Positions 8,339-14,402 of a stretch of 64,000 bases of DNA are shown here, piece after piece; position 1 is the first letter of the stretch, and each line of letters starts with the position of its first letter. The stretch comes from Olsenella sp. An188 (GTDB lineage: Bacteria; Actinomycetota; Coriobacteriia; Coriobacteriales; Atopobiaceae), in contig NZ_NFKF01000001.1 in assembly GCF_002160255.1 (NCBI RefSeq), forward strand, positions 310,001 through 374,000, given 5' to 3'. The notes under the pieces were generated by a model. It was not told the DNA's origin and did not search any database. It saw only the letters and a program-made list of their open reading frames with translations. The position numbers and the translations under genes were made by a program.

Positions 8339-8412
8339 CGCCCTCCCACAAGACGCAGCCTCTTGACGCTTTGGCTCGAGAATTCGTCCGCAACCCGCAC
8401 GTCCTCGAAGGG

Positions 8413-12793: not shown

Positions 12794-12853
12794 CGCTGGT
12801 CCGAGCCATGCGCACGCTTTTCTCGCCCTGCTGCTCTCCGACTTTGAGGGCTG

Positions 12854-12931
12854 ACCCTCCCAAACCTACGAAATCCCTCCCAAACCGTAGGTCTGGGAGG
12901 GATTAAGCATCCTGAACCCTCCCAAACCTTC
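12854..12931. repeat. CCCTCCCAAACC hairpin array, left of the nuclease gene
   Basis: Three copies of ACCCTCCCAAACC(T/G) occur within 80 bases; the central one pairs ATCCCTCCCA (12873-12882) with TGGGAGGGAT (12894-12903). A GGCGAGAAGAAC 12-mer follows at 12937. The same motif reappears on the other side of the next gene at 14.24-14.35 kb, so the gene is bracketed. A terminator role for the upstream gene is also possible. Confidence 0.65.
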
Positions 12932-13003
12932 ATTCTGGCGAGAAGAACGTAGTTTTTGGCAGGGCAACGCCCGGAGCACCCGCCCGGCGCGTCCCGACTG
13001 AGC

Positions 13004-14035
13004 TCAGCGCCTCAGCAGCGCGGGCCAGTCGATTGACGGCGCCTCTCCCGTGCTCGCGAGCGGCGAGCCCAGACGTGGCACGCCGTAGAGGTCGAGCTTG
13101 CGCACGAGCTCGCTCACGCACGCTGCCTCCTCAAACGTGAAGCGCACCACTGAGACGTCGTATGCCGTGATGAGCCCCTCGCGCTCTCGCTGGTCAACAA
13201 GGACCTGCCGCACCGACCTCCCCCCTGACAGACCGGAATCGAGTAGCTTCCTTTTGCCGTCGCACTCACCCACGATCACCCGCCCGTCCGCACGCACCCA
13301 GACGAAGTCCACCCGGAACCACCGGCCCGGACGCAGCGGGTCGGGAACCCATGCCTGCAGGTCGGGCAGCATGAATCCCTGCTCGATCATCACGGCGCGC
13401 GCGATGGACTCCCCTCCGCTCTCCGCGCGGGCGTCGGCCCATGCGAGCGTCCCTAGCGCGCGGTCGACGCCGTGGCACCTCCCCGCGCGTGCCTGCAGGT
13501 AGCTGACCAGCTCCTCCCTGCCACCCGAGGCATGCGCCACCGCATGGTCCGCCACGACCATGCCCTCCCGGAAGCTCAGCGACCGCATGCAGTCGAGCGT
13601 CGTGCGCGGCAACGGGGTCACCCTCACGCTCGACCGCACCACCGGTCGGTCCTCCGCGCAGTCGACGGCGTGCCAGGCGATTCGGTCAGAGCGGACGGAC
13701 CAGCTGCTCCTTGGCGCCGCAACGTGCGTCTTTTCCAGCAGCCCCCAGGAGACGTCCGCCCCGTGCGCCAGCGCCGCCGAGACCCCGCAGAACACCCAGC
13801 CCGGATGGAGCCGCTGCAGCCCGCGCATGATCGCGAGCGCCCGGGCATCCGGCCTGAGCCCCTCCCACCAGCTCGCCCGCGCGTACATGCCACGCTCGGG
13901 CGAGACGATCCCTCCCGCCCCCATGCGACGACGCAGAGCGGCGCGCACGCGCTCCGTCTCTGGCACGAGGAGCGACCCCGCTCTCTGCGCGCCGTCAAGC
14001 ATCGCGGATAGCTCGCCTTCCACCTTCTTGCTCAT
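13004..14035 (-). CDS. AbiEi-like antitoxin-fold / DUF559-type nuclease domain protein
   Basis: A 343-residue protein. The N-terminal half resembles the AbiEi-type (type IV antitoxin-like) region of actinobacterial proteins: a short winged-helix-like start, GGIVSPERGMYARASWW, LQRLHPGWVFCGVSAALAHG and RVTPLPRTTLDCMRSLSFREGMVVAD. The C-terminal third looks like a restriction-endonuclease fold: ESGGESIARAVMIEQGF, RVDFVWVRADGRVIVGECDGK, i.e. E, D and ExDGK catalytic-type residues as in DUF559/Vsr proteins. No AbiEii toxin gene is adjacent. GGGGGGTGG precedes the ATG at 14035; upstream in-frame ATGs lack sites. A defence or addiction role is inference. Confidence 0.65.
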   Translation of the reverse strand: MSKKVEGELSAMLDGAQRAGSLLVPETERVRAALRRRMGAGGIVSPERGMYARASWWEGLRPDARALAIMRGLQRLHPGWVFCGVSAALAHGADVSWGLLEKTHVAAPRSSWSVRSDRIAWHAVDCAEDRPVVRSSVRVTPLPRTTLDCMRSLSFREGMVVADHAVAHASGGREELVSYLQARAGRCHGVDRALGTLAWADARAESGGESIARAVMIEQGFMLPDLQAWVPDPLRPGRWFRVDFVWVRADGRVIVGECDGKRKLLDSGLSGGRSVRQVLVDQREREGLITAYDVSVVRFTFEEAACVSELVRKLDLYGVPRLGSPLASTGEAPSIDWPALLRR

Positions 14036-14241
14036 GGCACCACCCCCCATGGCGCGCATTGTCGGGCGAGCGCCACGCATGCGGGCGCGGGACATCTCTC
14101 GCACAACGCGACCCACGCCTAAAACACAGGTCCCCACCTGCCAAAGTACCCGACGGGACCATCTCCGTCAGATTCGTGGAAGATTCACTAACGGTCCTGT
14201 TTGGCCGGCGAGCGGTATGCGGGGATTGAAGCCGAACCTTG

Positions 14242-14352
14242 ACCCTCCTAAAACCACGTTCTTCTCGTCAAAACGGTGGTTTGAGAGGGCTCAGAAAGCT
14301 TAAACCCTCCCAAACCTACGGTGTTGGCTTGATTTCGTAGGTTTAGGAGGGT
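14242..14352. repeat. CCCTCCCAAACC hairpin array, right of the nuclease gene
   Basis: Two hairpins: ACCCTCCTAAAACCAC pairing with GTGGTTTGAGAGGG (14242-14290), with an octamer-like CTTCTCG in its loop, and ACCCTCCCAAACCTACG (14304-14320) pairing with CGTAGGTTTAGGAGGGT (14336-14352). They match the array on the other side of the nuclease gene. The rest of the 367-base gap from 14036 shows nothing else recognisable. Confidence 0.65.
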
Positions 14353-14402
14353 CGGACGAGAAGGGCCTCGGAGGCGCCGGGCGCAGGGTCGTGAGGGTGG
14401 CC

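Follow-up and report, generated by a model that had tools for sequence, protein, structure and literature searches.

A nuclease-like gene family with private flanking palindromes in Olsenella and other Coriobacteriales, a candidate REP-like system

In a REPtron the gene for an enzyme has cognate palindromes adjacent to it and more copies of them scattered in the genome, and the portion of the source used here describes the enzyme gene as acting in a more housekeeping-like than transposon-like manner, with recognition varying between systems (PMC8266576). AbiE is a type IV toxin-antitoxin system, and in the part of PMC7319586 drawn on here the operators of the AbiEi family consist of paired 23-bp inverted repeats, the gaps at the Rv2827c promoter being 13 and 4 bp; from these repeat and gap lengths we sum a period of 63 for operators of the Rv2827c type. 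The homing endonuclease I-Bth0305I, one of the EDxHD (Vsr-like) enzymes, forms dimers on a target site of almost 60 bp in the section of PMC3943268 consulted. The gene discussed here resembles each of these in some respects. It lies in a 64,000-nucleotide stretch of the Olsenella sp. An188 genome, which we call the window, with the following features in window coordinates.

12853-12974, plus strand: downstream arm, a two-hairpin palindrome unit with the second hairpin degenerate (inverted repeat I1, 122 nt, 80% complementary)
12855-12866, plus strand: half-site CCCTCCCAAACC, 35 nt from the in-register minus-strand half-site, with a plus-strand half-site 27 further on
12875-12886, plus strand: extra half-site, outside the 35/27 register (CCCTCCCAAACC motif scan)
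12890-12901, minus strand: half-site with 1 mismatch to CCCTCCCAAACC (motif scan)
12917-12928, plus strand: half-site CCCTCCCAAACC (motif scan)
13004-14035, minus strand: gene for a 343-aa protein with predicted AbiEi fold and Vsr-like nuclease domain; reading frame open throughout, stop codon at 13004-13006
14203-14216, minus strand: upstream motif ACCGCTCGCCGGCC (family motif RCCGCTCGCCGATT) between array and gene, a possible promoter or operator element
14232-14353, minus strand: upstream arm, inverted copy of the downstream two-hairpin unit (inverted repeat I1)
14243-14255, plus strand: degenerate half-site CCCTCCTAAAACC, seen by eye; repeat D2 has a copy at 14242-14258 (82%)
14278-14289, minus strand: half-site with 1 mismatch to CCCTCCCAAACC (motif scan)
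14305-14316, plus strand: half-site CCCTCCCAAACC (motif scan)
14340-14351, minus strand: half-site with 1 mismatch to CCCTCCCAAACC (motif scan)

With at most one mismatch CCCTCCCAAACC has 7 copies in the window, every one of them inside 12855-14351, where 0.19 were expected, and none of 100 shuffles of the window reached 7. A preliminary description of the locus had the motif absent elsewhere in the window, and this is borne out, all 7 of the 7 copies being beside the gene. It also gave three motifs on the left, where there are indeed three plus-strand copies (12855, 12875 and 12917), although only two have the leading A, position 12874 being T. The two hairpins that it placed on the right are real, but the left side forms a hairpin too, at 12872-12904 with arms 93% complementary. 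The two sides of the gene are inverted copies of the one 122-nt unit, which consists of two hairpins joined by a short linker (TTAAGCATCCTGAA on the left and CTCAGAAAGCTTAAA on the right), with half-sites spaced 35/27, and four other places in the window's genome hold similar units without the gene. For 44 of 131 homologues a copy of the motif RCCGCTCGCCGATT with up to 3 mismatches precedes the start codon on the coding strand, as against 8-9 of 131 in three control placements. Rfam recognised two tRNAs in the window and nothing else. A further sequence, GCGAGAAGAAC, has 46 sites in the window with at most one mismatch (for example 12938-12948 and 14258-14268; 1.4 expected), and sequences of this type are also frequent in the loops of hairpins and where arrays end, taking the form GTTCTTCTC on the upstream side of homologues and GGCGAGAAG on the downstream side.

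With regard to the protein, the gene product is predicted to comprise an AbiEi-antitoxin-like part and an I-Bth0305I-like nuclease domain. In an AlphaFold2 model built from nine sequences (mean pLDDT 87.6, pTM 0.85) residues 4-201 align with the AbiEi antitoxin 6y8q (Z 12.0, rmsd 5.5, 170 residues) and this N-terminal fold also with 1zel (Z 8.5); residues 206-320 align with the I-Bth0305I catalytic domain 3r3p (Z 10.0, rmsd 2.2, 93 residues), this C-terminal fold aligning in addition with NGO0050 (3hrl, Z 8.8) and TnsA (Z 6.4). The assignment is based on VIA re-alignment of Foldseek candidates, none of which was at E<=0.001 in Foldseek, and Foldseek by itself gave no match to the model at that level. 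The window protein has no Pfam or NCBIfam match at E<=1, and a PDB sequence profile search with it gave chance matches alone (flagellin, carboxylesterase). It matches the PADLOC AbiEi model weakly (E 3.3e-4); one PADLOC AbiEi model matches 8 of 9 aligned members of the family, the best at 1.9e-8. Of the earlier label AbiEi/DUF559-like the AbiEi half is thus upheld by PADLOC and by fold, but Pfam does not match DUF559, either to the window protein at E<=1 or to the 9 aligned members.

Five active-site-like residues, E209, D243, E257, D259 and K263, are conserved in 76-79 of the 80 rows of a homologue alignment that includes a few duplicate loci. It is hard to recognise the canonical (D/E)xK triad in E257-C-D259, and no conserved H was noticed among the five, conservation here being judged by alignment. 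The window gene differs from its 77% identical homologue L027 at 15, 13 and 36% of codon positions 1, 2 and 3 respectively, which indicates purifying selection on the gene.

The named relatives are in Olsenella and other Coriobacteriales. Homologues were found in 29 of the 31 genomes of the window's genus, with 73 matches (one of which, G004:C1:285750, was left out of the fetched loci), and in 80 of 197 genomes and 24 of 89 genera of the order, from which 40 additional loci were picked by hand out of the order-wide search list. Rows L100-L103 (duplicates of L027, L028, L061 and L068), L122 (the same as L104) and L105 (flank too short) were removed. A repeat common to the 600 nt on either side of the gene was found at E<1e-6 in 99 of the remaining 132 homologues, and at 1e-12 in 83 of 132, whereas only 18 of 297 random intervals share a flank repeat at 1e-6; in 33 of the 132 there is no common flank repeat at 1e-6. 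We quote these stricter cut-offs and a same-genome control because at E<1e-3 the random intervals were too noisy a control (90 of 297, as against 109 of 133 homologues). In the same-genome test, which covers 129 loci (L104, L106 and L107, absent from the genome table, were left out), a gene's own flanks match each other in 70 of 96 cases and the flanks of different paralogues in 3 of 170; at 1e-12 the figures are 59 of 96 and 0 of 170.

Sharing between the upstream flank of one homologue and the downstream flank of another was graded by protein identity for the 131 loci that passed a flank-length filter. It was seen in 38 of 16,074 ordered pairs below 50% identity, 8 of 484 at 50-60%, 46 of 306 at 60-70% and 57 of 100 at 70-80%; after a dip at 80-90% (14 of 44) it reached 18 of 22 at 90% or more, compared with 97 of 131 for own flanks. 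Taken with the same-genome test, this means that the repeat follows the gene and not the genome, and that it changes with the protein. The preliminary description had proposed a search for the same repeats beside homologous genes: they are shared at high protein identity, but most homologues have different palindromes. Nor is there conserved synteny without repeats as such, since most syntenic homologues bear repeats of their own, different from those of the window. In the stretches that we read the palindromes sit outside the homologue genes. Another hairpin, with the core ACCCGGG GTGCTG CCCGGGT, recurs upstream of L075, L084, L088, L092, L095 and L097.

The arrays have a fixed geometry, and their half-sites are also dispersed. 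The half-site of a paralogue, L003, has 114 copies in the window's genome (1 for a reversed-pattern control), most of them in short arrays at a distance from the three homologues detected in that genome. In 20 stretches of it the half-sites alternate in orientation, and the spacing between neighbours is exactly 34 or 27 in 91 of 95 cases. The window's own half-sites differ in sequence from these and are spaced 35/27. Many copies unlinked to such genes had been named beforehand as an observation against the pairing of gene and repeat; this is true of the L003 type, but it fits a REP-like system and leaves the link standing. Periodic flanks were found by autocorrelation in 46 of 133 homologues (shuffled 0, window control 6 of 124), with 61 or 62 the commonest period (21 of the 46); the period was measured by direct autocorrelation, the BLAST-based estimate being blind to periods below 92. 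The similarity in spacing to AbiEi-family operators is a lead for binding and not a test of it. A lone L003-type half-site, CGTCCGCAACCCGCACGT, is at 8385-8402 in the window, near the end of an ORF. As to the source of the repeats, Y1 transposase genes are present in 7 of 9 genomes checked, but Y1_Tnp (PF01797, the RAYT transposase) has 0 matches in the window's genome and none in G004, which rules out a RAYT as source in the window's genome.

Among 29 genomes of the window's genus, 13 have the nuclease in the slot next to a 12-kb gene and 16 do not, and at conserved slots the gene and its arrays are present or absent together. Palindromes lie without the gene in 3 of the 16 nuclease-less slots (L263, L268 and L269), and most empty slots keep none. 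Presence of the nuclease requires 9 changes on the neighbour-gene tree, shuffled labels requiring 9.7-9.9. The slots compared gave no case of de novo insertion, in the sense of a jump to another location, nor of target duplication; deletion alone could produce the pattern, which would look the same here under insertion. At L269, in G013, the hairpins stay in the slot, xpt is inverted beside them and the nuclease gene is about 2 kb off on the same contig, an arrangement that possibly reflects inversion between the arrays.

In the case of a second genus, g35, the palindrome GAGCGTGGATAATCTCCCA is in 23 of 43 genomes and flanks both the nuclease homologue (L163, L214) and a Fic-family gene, which lies between two GAGCGTGGATAATCTCCCA palindromes at L205 and L208 (Fic_N 5.9e-22, Fic 1.3e-18) and, by DNA match, is present as a cassette in 8 of 21 g35 genomes. 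At the L163 site 10 of 21 genomes have gene and hairpins and 11 have 20-90 bp instead; these 11 keep no whole hairpin, with a partial half-site in G208. Three other genomes, G146, G199 and G138, match both flanks of the G131 Fic site with a 101-bp overlap equal to one palindrome unit (alignment check on G146), a result that recombination between two direct repeats could also yield. The mean number of GAGCGTGGATAATCTCCCA half-sites is 12.5 in the 11 genomes without the nuclease and 19.9 in the 10 with it, cassette copies being included and nuclease status being that of the L163 site only. Arm-to-arm symmetry in 66 g35 hairpins (1153 of 1254) is not above that of shuffles (mean 1149.6, maximum 1167), and one position alone clearly covaries between the arms. 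The solo hairpin L199 gave no information on empty sites, since the 10 genomes that lack this hairpin have no left flank either, in one case because the contig starts at the site. Near solo palindromes in G131 (L196, L197, L200 and L202-L204) a further dispersed sequence recurs, AAGAACGTCCCCAA or AAGTACGTCCCCAA, perhaps another palindrome family.

These distributions bear on the earlier suggestion of a cassette that moved as a unit. Gene and arrays do come and go jointly, and relatives without the Fic cassette that keep one repeat do exist at the Fic site, but most empty slots keep no repeat, no jump or target duplication was seen, and loss alone could explain the pattern. The alternative suggestion of a self-recognition sequence also has support, in that repeats private to each gene and co-diverging with its protein are as expected of a cognate site.

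With regard to classification, the locus is like a REPtron in having cognate palindromes that adjoin the gene and are dispersed in the genome, and differs in having an AbiEi-like plus Vsr-like nuclease fold in place of a Y1/HUH transposase, and arrays of alternating half-sites with a 61-62 bp period; no GTAG-type tag was noticed beside the palindromes in an unsystematic look by eye at the stretches read. We do not class it as a REPtron because the defining Y1 enzyme is absent. It is like AbiE in its N-terminal fold and in paired inverted repeats of similar spacing, which are upstream here at about 200-320 bp from the start codon, but it has downstream copies as well, so that arrays are on both sides of the gene, and a nuclease-like domain is fused C-terminally. 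An AbiEii (DUF1814) toxin was not among the four window neighbours (the 12-kb gene, which has no family, HTH_26, DUF2975 below cut-off, and Pribosyltran), and because no AbiEii toxin adjoins the window gene we do not class it as AbiE. The likeness to I-Bth0305I and other EDxHD enzymes is in the fold of the catalytic domain; the gene here stands alone between palindromes, the AbiEi-like part replaces the phage DNA-binding regions, the target would be a palindrome, and no H was noticed among the conserved residues. The NGO0050-type endonuclease-like proteins and TnsA are alike in C-terminal fold, but the PDB profile search gives no sequence match to them. We thus rate the pairing of gene and repeat as a new kind, since the known kinds tested fail on a defining feature, and we recognised no description of it in the open-access PMC texts searched.

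The explanation that we put forward, and to which we give about an even chance, is that the protein is a nuclease with cognate palindromes, working in a REP/RAYT-like way with an unrelated enzyme and persisting as a REPtron-like unit. The AbiEi-like N-terminal part would bind its own palindromes in the arrays either side of the gene, with dimers placed on inverted half-sites at spacings of about 27 and 34-35, and the Vsr/I-Bth0305I-like domain would cut or nick DNA at or near them. Repair of the break would then copy palindromes into other sites, occasionally with the DNA between two of them, and nuclease and palindromes would persist as a selfish or domesticated unit, the gene and flanking arrays forming its core. 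To this would be added solo palindromes dispersed in the genome, together with passenger genes, such as the Fic gene in g35, caught between two palindromes. We infer binding, cleavage and nuclease-driven dispersal from the arrangement of the genes and repeats and the modelled fold. Several results count against the proposal: the 33 homologues whose flanks have no common repeat at 1e-6, the lack of any observed insertion or target duplication, the empty slots that mostly keep no palindrome, the GAGCGTGGATAATCTCCCA half-sites still present in g35 genomes without the nuclease at the L163 site, hairpin arms no more symmetrical than shuffles, and the poor fit of E257-C-D259 to a (D/E)xK triad.

The main rival is autoregulation, in which the arrays are AbiEi-type operators only, perhaps repressing the protein's own gene by DNA looping, and the scattered copies are regulon operators or relics. 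In the portion of PMC7319586 used here, paired inverted repeats are the binding sites of AbiEi and of Rv2827c, two proteins that autoregulate, and both the half-site geometry and the AbiEi-like fold (Z 12) are in keeping with such a role. However the matching downstream arrays in 99 of 132 homologues are not well accounted for, the window array precedes the start codon by about 200-320 bp where -1 to -131 would be the AbiEi-type position, 114 half-sites of one type per genome are many for a regulon, and a nuclease-like domain with conserved residues is left without explanation. We think autoregulation rather unlikely.

It is less probable still that the nuclease is a defence or addiction cassette which attacks incoming DNA, with palindromes that mark self DNA or restrain the nuclease. 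The PADLOC AbiEi-model matches, the patchy presence at a conserved slot with tree changes like those of shuffled labels, and the same palindrome beside the g35 Fic gene would all suit it, but the PADLOC matches are weak for the window protein, AbiEii is missing from the scanned neighbours, and the viral contigs searched contain no relative, hence no sign of phage carriage; nothing in the data shows the defence role that the preliminary description gave to the gene. We consider it very unlikely that the association is passive, the palindromes being bidirectional terminators or insulators, or repeats of another element, in repeat-rich gaps where the gene tolerates insertion. Such a situation could be read into the position of the palindromes outside the homologue genes in the stretches read, the abundance of GCGAGAAGAAC-type sequences across the window and the Y1 transposase genes in most of the genomes checked. 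The privacy of the repeats within genomes (70 of 96 against 3 of 170) counts strongly against it, as do their co-divergence with the protein and the lack of a Y1 transposase in the window's genome and G004.

Taken further, the proposal of a nuclease with cognate palindromes would make this a second, independent REP system, extending across the Coriobacteriales, of AbiEi-Vsr fusion nucleases with private palindromes that are rapidly re-specified and spread by homing-like copying through break and repair, with other genes carried between two palindromes. We advance this whole reading tentatively, as somewhat short of an even prospect. The mechanism would be a convergent cousin of that of REPtrons.

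Even the weaker, regulatory reading would still explain a large system of private repeats that is apparently undescribed in the open-access PMC literature. If the nuclease reading is true, dispersed palindromes of a major gut-bacterial group stem from a nuclease unrelated to the REP transposases, and the dozens of natural co-diverged protein-palindrome pairs would be a data set on change in DNA-binding specificity. The family would also be a test of whether REP-like repeats require a transposase.
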